DNA of 21,152 nt from a virus, in the IMG/VR virus record IMGVR_UViG_3300032242_000780, positions 1 through 21,152 of that record; one strand, given 5' to 3'. The notes below the pieces were generated by a model that worked only from the letters and a program-made list of their open reading frames with translations, did not search any database and was not told the origin of the DNA. Below, piece by piece: positions 1 through 11,483 of the stretch. Position 1 is the stretch's first letter; each line of letters opens with the position of its first letter. The position numbers and the translations under genes are program-made.

Positions 1-2008
1 CGTTGGTATTAATTGCAGCCAAAACCGCAGCATTAACAGCAAATCCAGTTGTTACTGTTGTAACAGAACCTAAAGTTGAAACTTGAGCCTGTGCAGTATT
101 TAAGCGCAAATAAGGGTCTGTTAATGTTGTCATGCCACGAACTGTATCGTATATGTACCAATCGCCTGTACTGTCTGTACGCTTAATAATTACAAGTCTT
201 GTGCCTCCAGCAAACCCACAATTAATAGTTTGAGTTGTTCCATTGCCTGTATAAGAACCTACTTTGGAGACACCAGCAAGAGTGGCAAATAGGTAAGCAA
301 CATAAGTATAGCCAGAATTATTTGTAGAACTTTGAGTTCCAACAGAAAAAACCGATGAAGTTGGCGTAGTACTGTTCCAGTATGTCGAATCAGCAGCAGA
401 AGCATCTGTTTTATTAAGTGACAAAAAGTTTGTTGCGGTTGTAGGCAAAGAATACACAGACCAATCAGCAACACCACCAGAACGTGATTTAACAATCATT
501 AACTCAGGCGCAACACCCAAGTTATGTGCCACAGTAGTAGCACTTCCTGTACCCGCATAGCAAACTTCATCAAAGAACCCTGGCGCACGTTTTAGATACC
601 AATTAATGTAAGGCTCGCCACTAACATTTATTAAACTTGTAAAAACTTCAGGCCCTACAACAACACCATCCATATTAGCAAAACTTACCAAACTATCCGC
701 AGCAGTAGTTTCTGTATTAGTATTGTTACTCCTTATGTAATAAGTAGCACCTCTTAATCTATCAAAATATGCTGCTGGGTAAGCAGTTTTGTCTTGACTT
801 ATTGACAAATCTACTGGAAACCCAACACCTGTAATTGTTGCGTCTGCGCCAGTACCTGTTCTAGCAATTGCGTTATAAACACTTGTTCCCGTTGTAGGCG
901 TTTTCATTGGCCCACGGCGTATTGCTATGTAGATAACATTAACACCCGACCCAAAAAAACCTGAACTAGCAGAAAAACCCGTTGCTGTTGGGGAAAAATA
1001 CGGTGTTGTATAGGCAACTTCAGGATAAGGATTATCAGGGCTTAATCTGTTATCTCCTGTATTGCTAAAACCGCGCATGTTATCAAATATCACCCAATTT
1101 GTTGATGCGGTTGAACCTTTCATCAGCAAAAATTGTGGTTCAAATCCTAGATTTATGTTTGTTGTACCGCTGGATGCTTCAGTATAACTTCCACAAGTAA
1201 TTACATTGTCTGTACCAGCAGCGCCAAATCCGCCAGCGTTGGAGGCGAATAGATAGGCAACCCAAGTATCACTAGAGCCCACATACGCACTTGGACTAAA
1301 AGTAGTAGCAGTAGGAGAAAGGGATACGCCTTGATCTGATTGAGCGTCAGCAGTATTTAAAAGGCAAGCATAGGTACCTGTAATGCCTCCAGTCAATCCT
1401 GTATGAGCAACAATCCAATTACCAGTAGTGCTAGTTCGTTTAAGAATAATACATCCCGGCAAAACACCAAGGTTATGACTAAAAGTTCCTTGTCCTGTAC
1501 CTGTCACAACATCAAAGAACTTTGGTTGCTTGCGGAATGTCCATGAGACATAAGTGCTACCAGTATTGTTAATGCTAAATGAATAGCTAGAGGCAATTCC
1601 ATAACCTGTTGAGTTAAACCCACTTATTCCGTAGGTATCATTTGGCGCTGTATCTTGAGCACCTGTAAGGTTGGGGTAAATAGAACTACGATTACCCCGA
1701 ACTGTATCTATAATTCCATGATTACTAGGATTTGTGGTTCTTGATTTACTCCAAACCATTCCGCCCTTACCCGCCAAGTCAATACCGTTGGTGATGGTCT
1801 GCGTAGAGCTGTTACCCGTATAAAGATATGTGCTAAACACATCCTCAATGTATGGCGGTGAATTTCCCGCAATGGGCCAGATTCCTTGCTGTTGGTACTG
1901 CAACTGTTGGTCGCGTGTCCATACCCCGGACGCTGCACCGGTTTGGTACGGCCCTGTTGGTGTGACTGGGGTCTTGGTGATTAGCCCGCCGGGGTATTTT
2001 TCGCTCAT
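1..2008 (-). CDS. Large host-contact/fibre protein with duplicated beta domain (DUF7483-like), C-terminus cut by window edge
   Basis: The frame is open for 669 codons from the ATG at 2008 to the left edge with no stop, so this is a partial gene. The ATG overlaps the stop of the upstream gene by four bases (ATGA). Residues 1-45 form a short conserved head (GGLIT, then AASGVWTRDQQ at 25-35 and GIWP at 42-45) that recurs in the glycine-rich protein at 2349-3281. Residues about 55-100 carry YLYTGN, NGIDLAGKGGMVW and DTVRG, which I recognise from a phage family I recall as DUF7483, a beta-rich domain in putative tail-fibre proteins. A unit beginning WTFRKQPKFFDVV (about residue 155) recurs as WYLKRAPGFFDEV (about residue 470), each followed by an HNLGV motif and a YLFA motif. 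Role inferred: receptor binding or a distal fibre. Family name moderate confidence; an open coding frame is certain. Confidence 0.85.
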   Translation of the reverse strand, partial: MSEKYPGGLITKTPVTPTGPYQTGAASGVWTRDQQLQYQQQGIWPIAGNSPPYIEDVFSTYLYTGNSSTQTITNGIDLAGKGGMVWSKSRTTNPSNHGIIDTVRGNRSSIYPNLTGAQDTAPNDTYGISGFNSTGYGIASSYSFSINNTGSTYVSWTFRKQPKFFDVVTGTGQGTFSHNLGVLPGCIILKRTSTTGNWIVAHTGLTGGITGTYACLLNTADAQSDQGVSLSPTATTFSPSAYVGSSDTWVAYLFASNAGGFGAAGTDNVITCGSYTEASSGTTNINLGFEPQFLLMKGSTASTNWVIFDNMRGFSNTGDNRLSPDNPYPEVAYTTPYFSPTATGFSASSGFFGSGVNVIYIAIRRGPMKTPTTGTSVYNAIARTGTGADATITGVGFPVDLSISQDKTAYPAAYFDRLRGATYYIRSNNTNTETTAADSLVSFANMDGVVVGPEVFTSLINVSGEPYINWYLKRAPGFFDEVCYAGTGSATTVAHNLGVAPELMIVKSRSGGVADWSVYSLPTTATNFLSLNKTDASAADSTYWNSTTPTSSVFSVGTQSSTNNSGYTYVAYLFATLAGVSKVGSYTGNGTTQTINCGFAGGTRLVIIKRTDSTGDWYIYDTVRGMTTLTDPYLRLNTAQAQVSTLGSVTTVTTGFAVNAAVLAAINTN

Positions 2009-2343
2009 GTCAATTCAATCCAAGTAAAGGTTGGCTCATCCCAGTAATACGGTTTGCCATCTGTTGGCATAGATGTAGGAGCATTCCACAAGCAAGTATC
2101 CTCGTTTAATGTCCAGCTTGCAAATGGTTGTGGTGGGATAAAGGCATCACGTTGTGCATCATAAGTGTAGCCAACACCAGCATAGTTTTTACGCAATGGA
2201 CGGTTTTCTGGGTGTTGACCTCCGCGAGTGTTGTAAGACGTTTGAACCCAGCCCGTACCAAATAAGCCAGAATCAATAACGTCCTGCTCGGCTACGATAA
2301 CTTGCGTAACAACGCCGTTTTCAACTTTTGCAAAATGGCTCAT
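2005..2343 (-). CDS. Small conserved phage protein, probably fibre-associated
   Basis: This 112-residue protein starts at an ATG five bases after the glycine-rich gene and overlaps the next gene by four bases. It opens with MSHFAKVENGVVTQVIVA and contains NYAGVGYTYDAQRDAFIPPQ at about 53-72, followed by PFASWTLNEDTCLW. I recognise this as a short protein common beside structural genes in T4-like cyanophages and in environmental phages, where it is usually annotated only as hypothetical or virion protein. It is rich in Trp and Tyr and has no signal peptide or membrane segment. Its place between two putative adhesin genes suggests a tail-fibre accessory or assembly role, but nothing in the sequence shows a catalytic function. 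The reading frame is secure and the function is inferred. Confidence 0.85.
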   Translation of the reverse strand: MSHFAKVENGVVTQVIVAEQDVIDSGLFGTGWVQTSYNTRGGQHPENRPLRKNYAGVGYTYDAQRDAFIPPQPFASWTLNEDTCLWNAPTSMPTDGKPYYWDEPTFTWIELT

Positions 2344-2348
2344 AGTGT

Positions 2349-3281
2349 TTAGAAAGTAATTGAACCGGACGATGTAAACGTGTAAATCGTATTGCCGCCA
2401 CTAGTAGTCACCGTAGGCGAGCCTGTAGTTGAAGCGGCTGCAATTGGTGCTGAAATAATAACTATTCCAGAACCGCCGGAACCTCCGTTATACACCGTGC
2501 CGTCATCTAAAGAATTTGCGCCGCCACCACCGCCGCCAGTGTTTGTTGTTCCATTAGAGCCATTACTATTTGATGGGCTGCTTCCGCCGCCGCCATTACC
2601 GCCGGGAACTGTTGGCGCAGAAAAAATGCCTCCGCCACCGCCGCCTCCAGCATAATAAACTGATGAACCGGTGATGGAAGAAGCAAGTCCTACACCCCCA
2701 GCACCTCCGCCCGAGCCCGTACCAGCGGTTCCAACTGCGCCAGCGCCGCCGCCGCCGCCCGCCCCATAGTAGGGGGTAGATCCGTTTGTTCCTGCACCGC
2801 CAGCATTACCTTGGCCTGATGTACCAGCGCCACCTTGGGTATATGCACCACCATAGCCGTGGCCCCCGCCACCCGAACCACCAGAACCACTTGCCGCACC
2901 TGTACCTGAACTTCCGCCACCTCCGCCACCAATAGTTGTAATGGAAGAAAAAACGGAATTAGAGCCGTTTGAACCATTAGTCCCAACAGATGTTGATCCG
3001 TTGCCTCCGCCACCTACCGTAACGGTATATGCGGTTCCAACGGAAATAGTGAGTGTACTAGTTAATAAACCCCCCGCCCCGCCGCCACCAGCACGGTACG
3101 AACCGCCGCCCCCGCCGCCAGCAACTACTAGATAGGTCAAAGATGGGGGAGGTTGCGCGGGCCAACCGCTACCCGCGATAGCTTGCATTTGTTGCTGGCG
3201 TGTCCATACCCCAGAAGCCGCGCTGGATGATGTTGTCGGCGCAGTAGCCGAGATGACCCCGCCTTTGTAGCGCATGGACAT
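2349..3281 (-). CDS. Glycine-rich tail adhesin (polyglycine-type receptor-binding protein)
   Basis: The 310-residue protein has three parts. Residues 1-41 are a conserved head (RYKGGVIS, then AASGVWTRQQQMQ at 21-33 and GWP at 39-41) shared with the downstream gene. Residues about 48-275 begin TYLVVAGGGGGG and consist of repeated glycine runs of four to seven residues separated by Ser, Thr, Asn and aromatic residues. Residues about 275-310 form a C-terminal strand region ending YTFTSSGSITF. Glycine runs of this kind fold as stacked polyglycine II helices in the gp38-type adhesins of T-even-like phages, where the variable loops bind receptors; this protein also fits the broader phage 'glycine-rich domain' family. 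Role inferred: host recognition at the tail tip. The glycine codons make 2500-3130 locally very GC-rich, with a matching proline-rich shadow on the other strand. The start has GGGAG upstream; a second ATG lies two codons in. Confidence 0.85.
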   Translation of the reverse strand: MSMRYKGGVISATAPTTSSSAASGVWTRQQQMQAIAGSGWPAQPPPSLTYLVVAGGGGGGSYRAGGGGAGGLLTSTLTISVGTAYTVTVGGGGNGSTSVGTNGSNGSNSVFSSITTIGGGGGGSSGTGAASGSGGSGGGGHGYGGAYTQGGAGTSGQGNAGGAGTNGSTPYYGAGGGGGAGAVGTAGTGSGGGAGGVGLASSITGSSVYYAGGGGGGGIFSAPTVPGGNGGGGSSPSNSNGSNGTTNTGGGGGGANSLDDGTVYNGGSGGSGIVIISAPIAAASTTGSPTVTTSGGNTIYTFTSSGSITF

Positions 3282-3297: not shown

Positions 3298-3693
3298 CTA
3301 CGAGATGACCTCATAACTCACCGAGTAGGTAATACCGCTGGCTGTTCCGCTGGTAATGGAAATGCAAGTGCCTTCCATCAAATAGACGGGGGTTGTTTTG
3401 TCCACTACGATCAGCGAGGCATTAGCCGGTACTGACACTGTACTGACAATCGGGTAAGCCGTACCGCCGCTAGGAGCAGAGCCTTGGGCCACAGCGCCGT
3501 TGGTGTAAACAGATACCGTTGCGTTTACTGCATTGGAGCCGTTGATGTTAGCAGCGACGATCTGGTTAATTTTGTAGACCTGACCACTGGAAGCAGCATT
3601 GGTCACCAAAACAACCGCAGTCGTGCCGCCGGGAGTGTAGTAAGTCGTAGTGCCGGAAGCTGTTGTCGCGGCTAATAGGTTTGGGTTTGCCAT
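3298..3693 (-). CDS. Small beta-rich virion/tail protein, function unknown
   Basis: This 131-residue protein starts MANPNLLAATTASGTTTYYTPG and is preceded by a clear AAGGAG ribosome-binding site seven to eight bases from the ATG. It is rich in Thr, Ser, Val and Ala, has alternating hydrophobic patterns typical of beta-sandwich virion proteins, and has no signal peptide or transmembrane helix. It lies between a fibre-base protein and the glycine-rich adhesin, all in the same direction. I recognise the general type (small MANPNL-initial proteins in phage tail-fibre neighbourhoods) but cannot assign a named family. A tail or fibre decoration role is inferred from composition and position. Confidence 0.8.
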   Translation of the reverse strand: MANPNLLAATTASGTTTYYTPGGTTAVVLVTNAASSGQVYKINQIVAANINGSNAVNATVSVYTNGAVAQGSAPSGGTAYPIVSTVSVPANASLIVVDKTTPVYLMEGTCISITSGTASGITYSVSYEVIS

Positions 3694-3702
3694 AATTGCT
3701 CC

Positions 3703-4521
3703 TTAGAAGCCGAAGATGAAAGAGATCATAGTTGCCTTGGCTTGGGATACGCCAGAGGCTGCGGGTGCTTGGAATGTTGGGGCTGCGCCTGAGTTAGCAG
3801 TTAAAACATAACCTGCTGTTCCTGCTGCGGTAGTAGCCAGTGCGCCTGTTGTTGAGGCATAGGTTACGCCATACTGTGTAAACGCGCTACTTTGACCTGT
3901 ACCGCCGTAGTTATAAGCAAGCGGGGAAGTTGTTGTCAGCGTTGTAAACGCACCGGTTGATGGGGTTGTAGCGCCCACTGTGCCGTTTAAAGCGCCGCCA
4001 AACTTGGTTGCCGCTAGTGTGGTGCCATCCCAAGTCAGAGCAGAAGAAGCACCAAATGCGCCAGAGCTGTTGAACTGTACCTGTGTGTTAGAACCAGCAG
4101 CAGAGCCACCACCCACGTTCACAAAGTTTGTACCATCCCAAGCAACAATGGCCCGTGTGCCTGCCGCCAGAGTAACGCCCGTACCGGTAGCAGCCTTGAT
4201 TGTGATTGACTGGGTGCTTGTGGTGTTGTTGATGACAACGTAGGTTTTAGACTGCGCCGGAACCGTAATGGTGCGAGTAACTGTACCGCCAGCCGTCCAC
4301 AGAATGACTGCATACTGGGAGCTTGTAGAGGTTAGTCCGCTGCTTGAGTTGCTTCCTGTGGTAAGCGATAAAGTAACATCTGCATCCGTAGAAATTGTTT
4401 GAGTGCCAGCTACCGCTACATCCAAAACTTGGGAAAGAGCGTTGTTGATAAAGTCGCCCCACTGCCCGGACAAAGTTCCTTGCGTGGGTAGCGTTAAGCC
4501 AATAAGTGATGTATTTGCCAT
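3703..4521 (-). CDS. Tail-fibre base / fibre-like structural protein
   Basis: This 272-residue protein opens with GLTLPTQGTLSGQWGDFINN (residues 8-27), a signature I associate with short phage fibre proteins. A Thr/Ser-rich beta region follows (VAGTQTISTDADVTLSLTTG, then TITVPAQSKTYVVINNTT). The second half has the motif SNTQVQFNSSGAFGASSALT followed by WDGTTLAATKFGG, a segment common just upstream of trimeric fibre tips. It ends AKATMISFIFGF without the S74-type intramolecular chaperone domain that often follows this motif, so it may be a short fibre or an anchor for another tip. It has AGGAG upstream of its ATG. It belongs to the host-contact group at the end of this operon. Fibre-type identity is likely; its exact partner is unknown. 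Confidence 0.85.
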   Translation of the reverse strand: MANTSLIGLTLPTQGTLSGQWGDFINNALSQVLDVAVAGTQTISTDADVTLSLTTGSNSSSGLTSTSSQYAVILWTAGGTVTRTITVPAQSKTYVVINNTTSTQSITIKAATGTGVTLAAGTRAIVAWDGTNFVNVGGGSAAGSNTQVQFNSSGAFGASSALTWDGTTLAATKFGGALNGTVGATTPSTGAFTTLTTTSPLAYNYGGTGQSSAFTQYGVTYASTTGALATTAAGTAGYVLTANSGAAPTFQAPAASGVSQAKATMISFIFGF

Positions 4522-4530
4522 TCAAAGCTC

Positions 4531-5307
4531 CTAAGACGTAGGAATTGCTGCCCAATTGGGGTTTTCAGTATTATTAATTGCAGTCCAGCCCGGATTCTGC
4601 GTATCGGTGATATTTTGCCAGCTTGGAGTCTGGCTGTCATCTATTACTTCCCATAAATACCGTCCAGATTCAGTTGACGTAAGCGCCATTGTTTCGATAA
4701 TTCTGGGGCGGTAAGTAGTTATGGCTTGATTAGCGTCTGTTAATGACGCTGTTTCAGTAATACTTTGTATGTAATAGGTTCCAACCGTCGTGCTGTCCGT
4801 AAGCGCCATCGACTCCGTGATGGTCATTATCAGCGTAGCTACCGCTGTTTCCGCTATGGCTACCGATTCGGTGACGCTGGCTACAAAGTTGGCTAACGCT
4901 TCTTGCGTAGTTGTGATTGGGTTTGTCTCCGTCCGGGAGACTTGGTAAGTAGCGTTTGCTGCTTCGGTAGTAGACGTTGCTGCGGTCTCGGTTACCGTGG
5001 TCGTATACGCAGTTGTTGCTGTGTTGGAATCCGTCAGCGCCGCTGCTTCTGTTACTGATCGGGCAAACGTAGCTGCTACTGCTTCCGTTGTTGATGTCGC
5101 CGCAGTCTCTGTCCGGCTGACGTTCATTGTCAGCGCTACGGTTTGGGCATCCGCTATCGCCGCTGTCTCCGTGATGGAAACGCCAAGGGCCGCTGTTGCG
5201 GCCTCTGTGGATGTGATTGCTACTGTTTCGGTTACGCTATCTGCGTATACATCTCCACCGCCCCAGTAACCAGCACCCCAAGCGTTTACACCCCAGCCGG
5301 TTGCCAT
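4531..5307 (-). CDS. Tandem-repeat fibrous virion protein
   Basis: The 258-residue protein has a Trp/Gly-rich start (GWGVNAWGAGYWGGG, residues 4-18), a regular repeat region and a different repeat at the end. Ten units with the pattern S-[VIR]-T-E-[TSA] begin at residues 24, 44, 64, 84, 104, 124, 144, 162, 182 and 202, so the period is 20 residues except for one unit of 18. Residues 219-255 hold four Trp residues spaced 11 apart (W219, W230, W241, W252) in a WxxI...P pattern. There is no catalytic motif. Thr, Ala and Glu dominate the repeats, which suggests a repetitive beta structure or an extended trimeric shaft. The ATG lies one base after the upstream stop, so translation is likely coupled. 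A fibre or spike role is inferred; I know of no named family with certainty. Confidence 0.85.
   Translation of the reverse strand: MATGWGVNAWGAGYWGGGDVYADSVTETVAITSTEAATAALGVSITETAAIADAQTVALTMNVSRTETAATSTTEAVAATFARSVTEAAALTDSNTATTAYTTTVTETAATSTTEAANATYQVSRTETNPITTTQEALANFVASVTESVAIAETAVATLIMTITESMALTDSTTVGTYYIQSITETASLTDANQAITTYRPRIIETMALTSTESGRYLWEVIDDSQTPSWQNITDTQNPGWTAINNTENPNWAAIPTS
4543..4653 (-). repeat. Four coding repeats of 33 bases with Trp every 11 residues
   Basis: Residues 219-255 read as W-x-x-I-x-[DN]-[ST]-[QE]-[TN]-P-x repeated, with Trp at 219, 230, 241 and 252 and Pro at 228, 239 and 250. The first copy supplies only W-E-V-I at its start. This differs in period and composition from the 20-residue repeat just before it. 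Confidence 0.8.
4650..5238 (-). repeat. Ten coding tandem repeats of 60 bases (20 residues)
   Basis: The units encode the pattern [ST]-[VIR]-[TI]-E-[TSA]-x-[ASP]-[ILT]-[TSA], starting at residues 24 to 202 of the host protein. Spacing is exactly 20 codons except one 18-codon unit between residues 144 and 162. Units differ at many codons, so this is a diverged protein repeat and not a recent DNA expansion. Confidence 0.85.
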
Positions 5308-5881: not shown

Positions 5882-6304
5882 TTATTGAGAACGAATTAGG
5901 GCAGTTGAGTAAGTATTACCGGGCATTGTTACGGTAAACGTATTTGTGCAAGATTTATCTGAGCCAAAGTCAATTACTGCGACTGAAGCATTTGACCGAC
6001 TTGAGTTATAAATTAAAGCGCAGCGAGTAGTAAAGTTGGCGGGGTTCCAAACTACGTTATTAAAGTTAACGTACACCACACTATTAGTAGCATCGTAGTT
6101 AAGAGTTACGCCGGTCAAAGCTTTGCCGCCTGCGGTGTATCCTGTACCAGACACCTCGTTTACACTGCTATAGGCTGTAGTTGATTGGTTTAAACTAGCA
6201 TTGCCCGTGTACAGCGCCATGTAAAACGTGTCGGTCGTGAAGTTCTGAGTACCTTGGAACAATTGGTACTTAAAACTTGTGGTTTGTCCTTGGACTATGC
6301 TCAT
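5882..6304 (-). CDS. Virion structural protein, small beta-rich type
   Basis: This 140-residue protein begins MSIVQGQTTSFKYQLFQG and contains DTFYMALYTGNASLNQSTTA (residues 25-44), then NEVSGTGYTAGGKALTG. I recognise this as a recurring phage virion protein type that follows head-tail adaptor genes. The central YVNFNNVVWNPANFTTRCAL segment and the Thr-rich end suggest a jelly-roll or beta-sandwich fold. Its ATG overlaps the stop of the adaptor gene by four bases (ATGA), so it is translationally coupled to it. A role as tail or neck component is inferred from coupling and family occurrence. It has no enzymatic motifs. Confidence 0.83.
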   Translation of the reverse strand: MSIVQGQTTSFKYQLFQGTQNFTTDTFYMALYTGNASLNQSTTAYSSVNEVSGTGYTAGGKALTGVTLNYDATNSVVYVNFNNVVWNPANFTTRCALIYNSSRSNASVAVIDFGSDKSCTNTFTVTMPGNTYSTALIRSQ

Positions 6305-7218
6305 GGTATTGGCACCCTAGTTTGTCCAGTGCGGTAAGCATCAGTACGCTCCATACCGTCGCCCAGACGTTTAGCCAAACCAAGTGCCTCTGTGTACCGT
6401 CCTTGATACAGTGAAAGCATATCTGCCTCACCTTTCATAAAGGTATAGGCTTCCATCAGTGTTCCGTACAGTAGTACAGAATCAAAGTTATCCCCAAGCC
6501 AAGAAGTTCCGTCGGGGTTGTTAACTGTAGTAACGGTTGCCGTGCAGGAAACTCCAGTGCCGCCAATGCTGGCAATTGGCACAGTCAAAGAATCGCCAAC
6601 TTTATAAAACGATCCGCCGTTAGCAATAGTTACCGAAGATACCGTATTGGATGCAACAACCACCGTAGCGGTCGCGCCTGTGCCAGAACCGCCCGTCAGG
6701 GCAACGTTGTAGTACGTACCATTGGTAAACGATCCAGACGCAGATACAGAGCCCAGCGCCGTGACAATACCCTGCACAATAGATGCAGGATAGAAGAAGT
6801 AGTGAAGCTCAAGGTTATAGTTGGTATCCGGTGTCGGGCCAACAATAAACGTTAGTTCATTGGGTAATGTTGTTTGCGGCCCAAAGATACCGTAATACTT
6901 TGGAGCGCCCTTAATTGACGGATCTGGATATGCTTCACGCATGAAGTTAACATCTTTATCCAGCAGGTAATTATAAATACCTGTTGTTTGATCAATTAAT
7001 GCAAATGAATAAACAGCTAAAAAATCACTAGGCGCAGAAATATACTTGTTGTTATATGAAGCCACGCCAGTCACATTCTTGCGAAGTGCTGGAAATTGGA
7101 TGGAATTGAATACGCGCTGCTCAGCCTGCTGGACAAACGTAGGAATGTCGGCAACGAACGTAGACTCAGTATTCTGAGTGTAGTCCTGTACAAGCTGAAC
7201 AAGCTGCGCGTAGTTCAT
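6301..7218 (-). CDS. Head-tail adaptor protein (SU10-type adaptor) with an inserted beta domain
   Basis: The 305-residue protein opens with MNYAQLVQLVQDYTQNTES, then IPTFVQQAEQRVFNSIQFPA (25-44), and ends with GTSWLGDNFDSVLLYGTLME (from 237) and ALGLAKRLGDGMERTDAYR. This is the pattern of the phage adaptor family that includes the phage SU10 adaptor, which binds the portal and connects it to the tail. The helical core is interrupted at about residues 150-236 by a Gly/Thr/Val-rich segment with NGTYYNVALTGGSGTGATA and GGSFYKVGDSLTV motifs, nucleotides about 6511-6771. In family members I recall, the flanks (YYPxSIV and GTSWLGDNFD) sit nearly adjacent, so this looks like a domain insertion. The stop overlaps the next start by four bases. 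Identification as an adaptor is strong; the insertion is inferred from remembered family members. Confidence 0.88.
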   Translation of the reverse strand: MNYAQLVQLVQDYTQNTESTFVADIPTFVQQAEQRVFNSIQFPALRKNVTGVASYNNKYISAPSDFLAVYSFALIDQTTGIYNYLLDKDVNFMREAYPDPSIKGAPKYYGIFGPQTTLPNELTFIVGPTPDTNYNLELHYFFYPASIVQGIVTALGSVSASGSFTNGTYYNVALTGGSGTGATATVVVASNTVSSVTIANGGSFYKVGDSLTVPIASIGGTGVSCTATVTTVNNPDGTSWLGDNFDSVLLYGTLMEAYTFMKGEADMLSLYQGRYTEALGLAKRLGDGMERTDAYRTGQTRVPIP

Positions 7219-7487
7219 GCCATCGGGCCTCGGGCCATAACGCCTTTAGTTGCACAACCAGTGCCACGGATTTTGATGCCAGTTGTTTCTACGTTATCGT
7301 TGATACCAATGCTCACGCCGTTTGGCACAGGGTCTTCCAAGCTAACTTGGTCAGCCACTTTCTTGGTCATATATTCCTTGCGTGGAATACTGCCGTCAAT
7401 AGCTTGGCCTTTGGAGTTGTGTGGCTGGGCATAAACGGACGCTGGCCCGTTTTCCTTGCCCATGCTTTTGGAGCTAAATTTAGCCAT
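7215..7487 (-). CDS. Small basic phage protein with RGTGxATKG/ARGPMA C-terminus
   Basis: The 90-residue protein starts MAKFSSKSMGKENGPASVYA and ends with IKIRGTGCATKGVMARGPMA. I recall similar C-terminal motifs in short proteins beside adaptor genes of environmental phages. It contains no membrane segment or known catalytic motif. Its ATG shares one base with the upstream stop (TAATG) and its own stop overlaps the adaptor start by four bases, so three genes are coupled. Its position between a KGG-motif protein and the adaptor suggests a virion-associated role. No function is known to me. Confidence 0.8.
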   Translation of the reverse strand: MAKFSSKSMGKENGPASVYAQPHNSKGQAIDGSIPRKEYMTKKVADQVSLEDPVPNGVSIGINDNVETTGIKIRGTGCATKGVMARGPMA

Positions 7488-7753
7488 TATTTACCCCTTG
7501 AAGAGCTGCGTTGATTCATTGCGCGAGCCATATTGCGGCCCATAGCTTTCATTGCCTGACCAGTTACGCCGCCCTTAGCCATGCGGTCAATGCCGCCTTT
7601 TTTAAGCACAATCTTTGTGCCTTTACCGCCTTTATGCTCTTGCATATCATGCTCTTTAAAGGCTTTTTTGATCATAGCAACATCTTGCTTTTTATCCATT
7701 GCCTCTTCGCGCTTTTGCTCAGATTTGGATTCACCCATTTCTTTTTTAGCCAT
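7487..7753 (-). CDS. Small Lys/Met/Gly-rich phage protein (KGG-motif family)
   Basis: This 88-residue highly basic protein has AGGAG upstream of its ATG. Key segments are EAMDKKQDVAMIKKAFKEHD (17-36), HKGGKGTKIVLKKGG (40-54), DRMAKGGVTGQAM and a C-terminal GRNMARAMNQRSSSRGK. The DKKQ...KKAFK-HD...HKGGKG pattern recurs in environmental phage genomes as an unnamed short protein. The DKKQ and KKGG/AKGG segments also resemble the 123-residue protein at 10062-10433, so the two may be distant paralogues. The charge suggests nucleic-acid or capsid-interior contact, which is inference only. It is coupled by a one-base overlap to the next gene. Confidence 0.82.
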   Translation of the reverse strand: MAKKEMGESKSEQKREEAMDKKQDVAMIKKAFKEHDMQEHKGGKGTKIVLKKGGIDRMAKGGVTGQAMKAMGRNMARAMNQRSSSRGK

Positions 7754-7762
7754 AATAAACTC

Positions 7763-8152
7763 CTATGTTACCGATACTGTGACTGTACCCACACTTGCAG
7801 TCGTTTGCAAATAATTTGGTGTTAGAGCAGCCGTAAAACTGCTGGCTCCTCCAATTGGATTCCAGCCCCATTGTAAATCCCGCGAACCGCCACCGGGGTA
7901 TCCCAAAGTATCCAGTCCAGAAGAATAATAACTACGATCTGGCCTTGGATTCCTTACGCCCTGCGGATCATCAACTGGGAACATACCAAGCTGCAATTGC
8001 GGCTGATCTGGATCCCAGCATTGTGGACACACAAGCAATTCATAGTTTTTGGTTTTAATAACTTCGCGCTTAAGCTCAGTTAACAAAAACCGAAAACCAC
8101 ATCTATCGCATTCCGCAATGGAATTCTTACCGGAAGAAAACCTATTGCCCAT
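7763..8152 (-). CDS. Zinc-ribbon-containing phage structural-operon protein
   Basis: The 129-residue protein carries two CxxC pairs, C15/C18 (ECDRCGF) and C42/C45 (LLVCPQCWD), separated by 23 residues. This is the spacing of a small zinc ribbon, inferred to bind one zinc ion. The segment after it, PQLQLGMFPVDDPQGVRNPRP (about 51-71), is conserved in a family I recall in phages next to head-completion genes. The C-terminal third is Gly/Ser/Thr-rich (GGASSFTAALTPNYLQT). The gene begins immediately after the stop of the head-completion protein (TAAATG), so it is probably translated together with it. A structural or assembly role is more likely than transcription control given its place, but this is inference. 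Confidence 0.83.
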   Translation of the reverse strand: MGNRFSSGKNSIAECDRCGFRFLLTELKREVIKTKNYELLVCPQCWDPDQPQLQLGMFPVDDPQGVRNPRPDRSYYSSGLDTLGYPGGGSRDLQWGWNPIGGASSFTAALTPNYLQTTASVGTVTVSVT

Positions 8153-10061: not shown

Positions 10062-10433
10062 TTAGCAAAATTTACCGACGGTTTTGCCGCGAGAAGCAAT
10101 ACCATCAGCACGTGATGATGCAGAGCCACCAGCAGCCATGCCGCCTTTTTTCATGCCCATCATTTGTTTTTTGTCCAAGGCCATGTCAGCTTTGGAGCCT
10201 TCTTTCATGCCGCGTTTTTCAACGTCTTTGCCAGACTTTTCAAAAGCAGCCATACTCATTCCGCCTTTAGCCATGCCGCCACGCTTCATGCCCGGGGCCA
10301 TGCCGGGAGGCATACCTTGTGGAGCCATGTCAGGAGGAGGGGCAACTGGTGCTGCGGGAGCTGCTGCGCGACGGCGAGGAGCCGACATACGCGCTGCAAG
10401 CATTGCTGCCATACGTGGATCTATTTGGGGCAT
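10062..10433 (-). CDS. Met/Gly/Lys-rich small protein with ASSRADGIA C-terminal tag
   Basis: This 123-residue protein has a Pro/Ala/Met-rich N-terminal half (MPQIDPRMAAMLAARMSAPR, then a run of PPDMAPQGMPPGMAPGMKRG) followed by repeated basic-Gly-Gly motifs: KRGG, AKGG, KKGG, AAGG. It ends with SASSRADGIASRGKTVG and a final KFC. That C-terminus is shared with the protein at 11235-11483. The DMALDKKQ segment resembles DKKQ in the protein at 7487-7753. It has low complexity and is probably disordered. AAGGAG precedes the ATG. No function is known to me; a virion-internal protein is a reasonable guess from position and composition. Confidence 0.82.
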   Translation of the reverse strand: MPQIDPRMAAMLAARMSAPRRRAAAPAAPVAPPPDMAPQGMPPGMAPGMKRGGMAKGGMSMAAFEKSGKDVEKRGMKEGSKADMALDKKQMMGMKKGGMAAGGSASSRADGIASRGKTVGKFC

Positions 10434-11057: not shown

Positions 11058-11238
11058 CTTGACTGCTCTTAGCCTTACGATTAAAAATTGCTTGAACTGT
11101 ATCACTTTCGTATATACGGATACCTAGCCATATAATAGTAAAAAGCGATGCAATTGCCGGTAAAAACTCCATCATAGTACCTAACGTAGTAAATACGGCA
11201 AAACCATCTACAATATCTTTTGCGTTGTGATCGTTCAT
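11041..11238 (-). CDS. Putative holin-like membrane protein
   Basis: This 65-residue protein has one clear hydrophobic stretch at about residues 13-42 (FAVFTTLGTMMEFLPAIASL then FTIIWLGIRIYE), with charged ends and a basic, acidic C-terminal tail. Its size and the TLG...LP-I-SLFTIIW-GIRIYE pattern match small phage holins I recall, which make inner-membrane pores to release endolysin at the end of infection. Its ATG overlaps the preceding stop by four bases. No endolysin or spanin is visible in the window, and a lysis gene inside a structural cluster is not typical, so another membrane role cannot be excluded. Holin assignment is moderately confident. Confidence 0.72.
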   Translation of the reverse strand: MNDHNAKDIVDGFAVFTTLGTMMEFLPAIASLFTIIWLGIRIYESDTVQAIFNRKAKSSQDAIDE

Positions 11239-11483
11239 ACGTATGTACCCCTAGTTTTCCCGCGTTGGGCAATACCATCTGCACGGGATGATGCGCTAGA
11301 AACTTTACCGCCCTTAGCTTTATTAACCGTGGGCTCATCAACTGGCGTTGAGTCAGGATAAACGATGGGCTTAGGCATTGGCTTTGGCACGGGTTTAATA
11401 ACAATTTTTGCTTTAACCGGCGCTGGCATTGTGGATGTAGGCTCATCCACCGGTGTTGCGTTCTGGTATTTGTAGTCAGCCAT
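11235..11483 (-). CDS. Pro/Lys-rich small protein with ASSRADGIA C-terminal tag
   Basis: The 82-residue protein contains two PVDEPT segments (about 11-16 and 47-52), a Pro/Lys alternation (KAKIVIKPVPKPMPKPIVYP) and a C-terminal AKGGKVSSASSRADGIAQRG ending KTRGTYV. The last 20 or so residues match the end of the protein at 10062-10433. The KPxPKPxP stretch should be extended and flexible, in the manner of TonB-like linkers, but no membrane anchor is present. It is coupled to the holin-like gene by an ATGA overlap. Role unknown; the tag suggests a shared partner or destination with the other tagged protein. Confidence 0.8.
   Translation of the reverse strand: MADYKYQNATPVDEPTSTMPAPVKAKIVIKPVPKPMPKPIVYPDSTPVDEPTVNKAKGGKVSSASSRADGIAQRGKTRGTYV

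Follow-up and report, generated by a model that had tools for sequence, protein, structure and literature searches.

Two-slot N-terminal heads on exchangeable host-contact bodies in aquatic phages: a candidate docking plug

Tandem genes with a common head

Two neighbouring genes for host-contact proteins in the window (the whole stretch of 21,152 nucleotides of viral DNA analysed here) begin alike and then part completely. What does the common beginning do, and how have such different proteins come to carry it? The original prediction saw in it a virion-docking module bearing exchangeable receptor-binding parts. The features on which the question turns are as follows.

1–1873, minus strand: body of the downstream host-contact gene (B gene), DUF7483 (PF24299, phrog_24898), running past the window edge
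1874–2008, minus strand: B-type head of 45 codons, the N-terminus of the B gene, placed by alignment and profile matches
1913–1927, minus strand: 15-base identity inside the B head, codons for GVWTR
2005–2343, minus strand: gene for 112 amino acids between the A and B genes (phrog_7759, unknown function)
2349–3158, minus strand: body of the upstream host-contact gene (A gene), glycine-rich domain Gly_rich_2 (PF21722, E = 1.4e-15), stop codon included
3159–3281, minus strand: A-type head of 41 codons, the N-terminus of the A gene
3198–3212, minus strand: 15-base identity inside the A head, codons for GVWTR
3298–3693, minus strand: predicted beta-sandwich protein of 131 amino acids, usually directly upstream of the A gene; candidate docking partner or adaptor
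3703–4521, minus strand: fibre-like protein of 272 amino acids with the C-terminus SGVSQAKATMISFIFGF; candidate fibre bearing the tip

The A gene (3281–2349, minus strand) encodes 310 amino acids. The B gene starts at 2008 on the same strand and is still open at the window edge, after 669 codons without a stop; the gene predicted at 1–2008 is thus a host-contact open reading frame (ORF) cut by the edge and not a complete one. The short gene predicted between the two, at 2005–2343, is the 112-amino-acid gene.

The two heads had 21 identical residues in 45 alignment columns, and BLASTP of the two proteins gave 23 identities in 54 positions (E = 1e-7). Their local alignment score was 92, against a maximum of 44 among 2000 shuffles. 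The bodies scored 55, below the shuffled mean of 76, and therefore have no detectable similarity. A common head with an unrelated remainder, as predicted, is what the proteins have; the predicted G-x-WP element is present in the B head (GIWP), while the A head reads S-G-W-P.

Each body belongs to a recognised family. The B body matched PF24299 (E = 1.2e-91; 307.7 bits, cut-off 27) and phrog_24898, a tail fiber protein, and the A body matched PF21722 with 58.3 bits (cut-off 24.3). The DUF7483 body was ordered and beta-rich in an AF2 model, for which comparison with PDB folds gave no convincing match; DUF7483 was not found by name in the literature searched. In the B model, confidence was low over a long stretch only in the head, which had pLDDT below 50 over residues 1–50 and one helix at 32–40. 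Although low AF2 confidence is not proof, the head appears disordered in the isolated chain, save for this short helix. A PHROG search with three head sequences found no match at E values up to 10, sequence comparison with solved PDB chains gave weak, implausible matches, none above noise, and no description of the A or B head was found in the literature searched.

As predicted, the 15-mer GCGTGTCCATACCCC occurs exactly in both heads; it is found nowhere else in the window (0.04 matches expected by chance, allowing up to two mismatches). In each gene it lies in frame, as the codons for GVWTR; therefore, much of its significance is that of a protein motif.

The window holds a second case of a short common terminus on otherwise different proteins. 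Two small lysine-rich proteins (10062–10433 and 11235–11483, minus strand) have a common C-terminal tag, [SA]SSRADGIAxRGKTxG.

Slots, bodies and recombination

Viral contigs were searched with each protein and with the head alignment, and an iterated profile was then run over the fetched loci. The profile gave 221 head matches, which were reduced to 167 heads (145 different) in 97 viral loci when duplicate contigs and partial matches were dropped; head frequencies in this set are biased because the loci were fetched using head or body queries. The original prediction had proposed a search for the same head on other C-terminal types, and the heads were found joined to at least eight unrelated bodies. 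These included DUF7483, Gly_rich_2 and other glycine-rich types, SBBP propeller, Lcl_C, fn3, Laminin_G_3, RCC1-like bodies and several unassigned repeat proteins (classes assigned partly by regular expression and, in a few cases, by hand). A short conserved N-terminal peptide with exchangeable C-terminal parts is therefore present, and the bodies presumably bind receptors.

A search of bacterial genomes gave a single head locus, L191, with a B-type head on an RCC1-like body (6609–7835). It lies on a contig in a Phycisphaerales MAG and may be a phage contig placed in that bin. A blastn search of a phage collection gave one match, of 78 bases. In L185 (6989–7126) and L150 (863–1096), ORFs stop at or shortly past the head, without an in-frame body; they may be left over from body exchange or result from frameshifts.

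The heads fall into two types, for which a sequence rule was drawn up after the loci had been viewed: A heads read ..RYKGGVISAT.. and B heads ..KYPGGxITKxP... Gene order plays no part in this rule. Exactly two usable heads were present in 68 loci, and in every one of these the A head was upstream and the B head downstream; L150, an additional locus, has three head-like ORFs. On a tree of the heads, which is poorly resolved as it draws on 41 columns only, the slot label required 2 changes (shuffled mean 55) and the body class 43. The nearest head in another locus had the same slot for 135 of 136 heads. The nearest body, by comparison, belonged to the other slot 47 times in 141, and the closest body was often in another phage. 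The same body class occupied both slots in 37 of 65 loci (12.3 expected).

Mean head identity was 0.69 among A heads and 0.62 among B heads. Between A and B heads it was 0.500 within one phage and 0.503 between phages, which indicates that the duplication is old and that the plugs of the two slots have stayed distinct. The original prediction had named a recent duplication unique to these two genes as the case that would count against it; the A/B split is older than the sampled phages and the two heads of a phage are no closer to each other than to those of other phages, so that this case is ruled out. By sequence, the heads are two slot-specific subtypes rather than one common anchor. The prediction of a shared N-terminal head with exchangeable C-terminal parts is thus supported, and is to be refined from one anchor to two.

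The two genes of a phage might also undergo repeated gene conversion through conserved DNA, which would keep their heads similar. The 15-base identity in the window and the 19 bases common to the A and B heads of L133 would suit this, as would codon sharing between a phage's own two heads, slightly higher than in shuffles (0.418 against 0.389, reached by 140 of 5000 shuffles). However, at least 15 bases were shared in only 2 of 68 phages, the A and B heads of one phage resembled each other no more than A and B heads from different phages do, and the tree separates the two types into two groups. We regard this explanation as largely refuted and highly improbable. The original suggestion that the conserved DNA serves recombination between the two genes was not supported, and GCGTGTCCATACCCC was rejected as a shared recombination element, since it encodes GVWTR and codon sharing within a phage is barely above chance.

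Recombination at the heads is a different matter. The original prediction had proposed a search for breakpoints near residue 45, and breaks were found at the head–body junction. L002 and L003 were 99.97% identical over 7444 bp and diverged from about codon 61–63 of the B gene. Between the window and L001, head A was 98–100% identical and the A body about 55%, the 112-amino-acid gene 92–100%, head B about 95% and the B body mostly 40–75%. L001 and L002 had 16 differences in 8477 bp, all in 6006–6219; 15 of these fell within or next to head A, at which L001 has the window-like allele. Near-clonal contigs thus either break where head meets body or have nearly all their differences in head A. This supports recombination at the heads, with the caveat that the breakpoint contigs are metagenome assemblies and chimeras could form at conserved heads. 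We also found 23 gene pairs whose heads were 85% or more identical in DNA and whose bodies belong to different classes. Four of them were rejected as swaps: they paired L167, called FN3, with fn3+DUF7483 proteins at 81–85% body identity, which is a difference in labelling. Nineteen pairs were left.

The 131-amino-acid gene and the fibre tip

The 131-amino-acid gene, which adjoins the A gene in the window, was present in 91 of the 93 loci with A/B heads for which 1.5 kb or more of upstream sequence was available, and in none of the 32 loci where DUF7483 bears another N-terminus. The AF2 model of its product is a beta-sandwich (pLDDT 89.7). The best structural match was the cement protein of phage KHP40 (Z 9.1); trimeric cement and turret proteins of phages, as well as nucleoplasmins, were similar to a middling degree, and the beta-sandwich is a common arrangement.

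The gene before the 131-amino-acid gene had an FGF/FGL/FGAI-type C-terminal end in 106 of 107 distinct genes as judged by eye (84 by regular expression). In the window, SGVSQAKATMISFIFGF is a member of this tip motif, which is paired with the A and B heads. Other heads went with other tips, again by eye: IIKTGSATFTVLASxTQFKA with MPLQxTSG heads (14 of 14), IVKTGNAAFTVFTSQTKFA with MPLxxTxG heads (4 of 4) and FFADGTNWYGVTVGQNY-like tips with MFxASKT heads (5 of 5). Head type thus co-occurs with the 131-amino-acid gene and the fibre tip, an association to which shared ancestry may contribute because the loci are related. DUF7483 bodies with the other N-termini MPLQATSGAASYDAFGGG, MFAASKT and MPLVQTRGAASAQGFGEF were seen in L034, L050, L055 and other loci, and in each case the fibre in front had a C-terminal motif of its own. 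In the window, a protein of 258 amino acids made of SVTETVAITDT-like repeats (4531–5307, minus strand) is flanked by the fibre-like gene on one side and the tail genes on the other; no family match was found for it.

The full head is not required beside the 131-amino-acid gene, because in 42 of 75 loci fetched by that gene the next gene had a shortened or different N-terminus. In several of these 42, no more than the first twelve or so residues were retained, a GGxI-like core among them. The head thus seems to be composed of two parts, of which only the first tends to accompany the 131-amino-acid gene in these loci. In eight loci (L208, L213, L217, L254, L256, L259, L262 and L263), RCC1-like propellers directly after the 131-amino-acid gene had short N-termini ending in KPGFNPL or KPGFDPL.

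Genome order and co-occurrence suggest that docking takes place on the fibre or its tip, via the 131-amino-acid protein, rather than on the virion base. We consider it probable that the head of 41–45 residues is a plug that joins exchangeable adhesin bodies, in two slots, to an assembly of the fibre tip and the 131-amino-acid protein; the physical docking, the identity of the socket and the position at the fibre tip are what we infer. On one side of the plug would be a host-contact body that varies (lectin-like, glycine-rich, propeller, fn3 or laminin-G), and on the other a conserved assembly formed by the C-terminal tip of the upstream fibre protein and the beta-sandwich protein. The two plugs are not identical, A being in the gene adjoining the 131-amino-acid gene and B in a following gene, and therefore each phage would display a pair of adhesins, one per slot. 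Recombination within the head or shortly behind it would retain the plug and substitute the body, changing host contact, and a body would be free to move between slots and between phages.

The head might instead have the tail base or the adaptor complex as its direct docking site, with the 131-amino-acid gene and the fibre being separate appendages that travel with it. N-terminal tail anchors are common in podoviruses (PMC6872550), and a Pfam scan found an SU10-adaptor-like gene upstream in the window. An adaptor homologue was recognised in only 47 of the 93 loci, far fewer than the 131-amino-acid gene, a count that faster evolution of the adaptor would likewise lower; adaptor homologues also occur alongside other heads, and it is the fibre C-terminus that matches the head type. 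We think direct docking on the base unlikely.

Less likely still is that the head is a signal for assembly or chaperone recognition, or a nucleus for trimerisation, rather than a permanent connector. A short, Q-rich head of low AF2 confidence with one predicted helix (32–40) would fit such a role, and the small 112-amino-acid gene could encode the chaperone. However, that gene, often missing outside the window, was found in only 29 of the 93 loci with A/B heads, and two subtypes in fixed order suit two sockets better than a common chaperone.

Known phages and docking systems

The order fibre, 131-amino-acid homologue, A-head gene, 112-amino-acid homologue and B-head gene in phage DSL-LC04, itself a lake metagenome assembly, is that of the window. 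The isolated Pelagibacter phage HTVC033P (L268, 4955–11370) has a parallel order and a protein similar to the 112-amino-acid one, but its tandem genes share a different, GGII-containing N-terminus. In cyanophage S-SKS1 (L269, 4917–8173), a 131-amino-acid homologue is followed by tandem genes sharing another GGxI-containing N-terminus. The tandem genes of HTVC033P and S-SKS1 are glycine-rich or laminin-G-like, with common NGGxIG N-termini. Cassette genes of DSL-LC04 and HTVC033P are annotated as hypothetical, lectin or tail fibre, and the parts of PMC10611076 and PMC9038755 consulted on these phages do not mention a shared head or slots.

The A/B head system is best read, by analogy, as working like gp38 of T-even phages or the docking peptides of K1-5 and KP32. 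In T2, PP01 and S16, gp38 is a separate adhesin gene whose product docks by its N-terminal part on the tip of the gp37 fibre; the variable part, with a frame of glycine-rich motifs, binds the receptor, and swapping the N-terminal part restores compatibility (PMC12892980). A separate adhesin gene and a putative N-terminal docking part are features in common. Unlike gp38, the head here has 41–45 residues and its sequence matches no solved chain above noise, there are two adhesins per phage, a 131-amino-acid beta-sandwich gene lies between the fibre-like gene and the A gene, and the bodies have many folds beyond the glycine-rich one, to which the A body belongs by sequence (Gly_rich_2).

K1-5/SP6-like phages and KP32/KP34 have two receptor-binding proteins with short conserved N-terminal peptides and exchangeable C-terminal domains; in these systems the second protein docks on the T4gp10-like domain of the first or on the adapter gp37 (PMC6872550). 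The two proteins, the short N-terminal peptides and the exchangeable C-terminal parts are alike here. In contrast to those systems, no depolymerase body was recognised; the window proteins scanned gave no Pfam match to a T4gp10-like domain, which could be missed if diverged.

More tentatively, a general code may hold in aquatic phages, in which the type of the fibre's C-terminal tip dictates the N-terminal plug of the next adhesin gene or genes. In one large group (window-like phages, HTVC033P and S-SKS1), a beta-sandwich of the 131-amino-acid type would stand between them, tandem adhesins would carry GGxI-type plugs, and bodies would circulate freely among phages with matching plugs. If this is true, the head, the 131-amino-acid gene and the fibre-tip motif would flag receptor-binding proteins in many uncultivated aquatic phages, among tail proteins now annotated merely as hypothetical or glycine-rich, and would also mark where bodies are exchanged. 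With the two-slot rule, it would be possible to predict from sequence how many adhesins a phage has and in what order.
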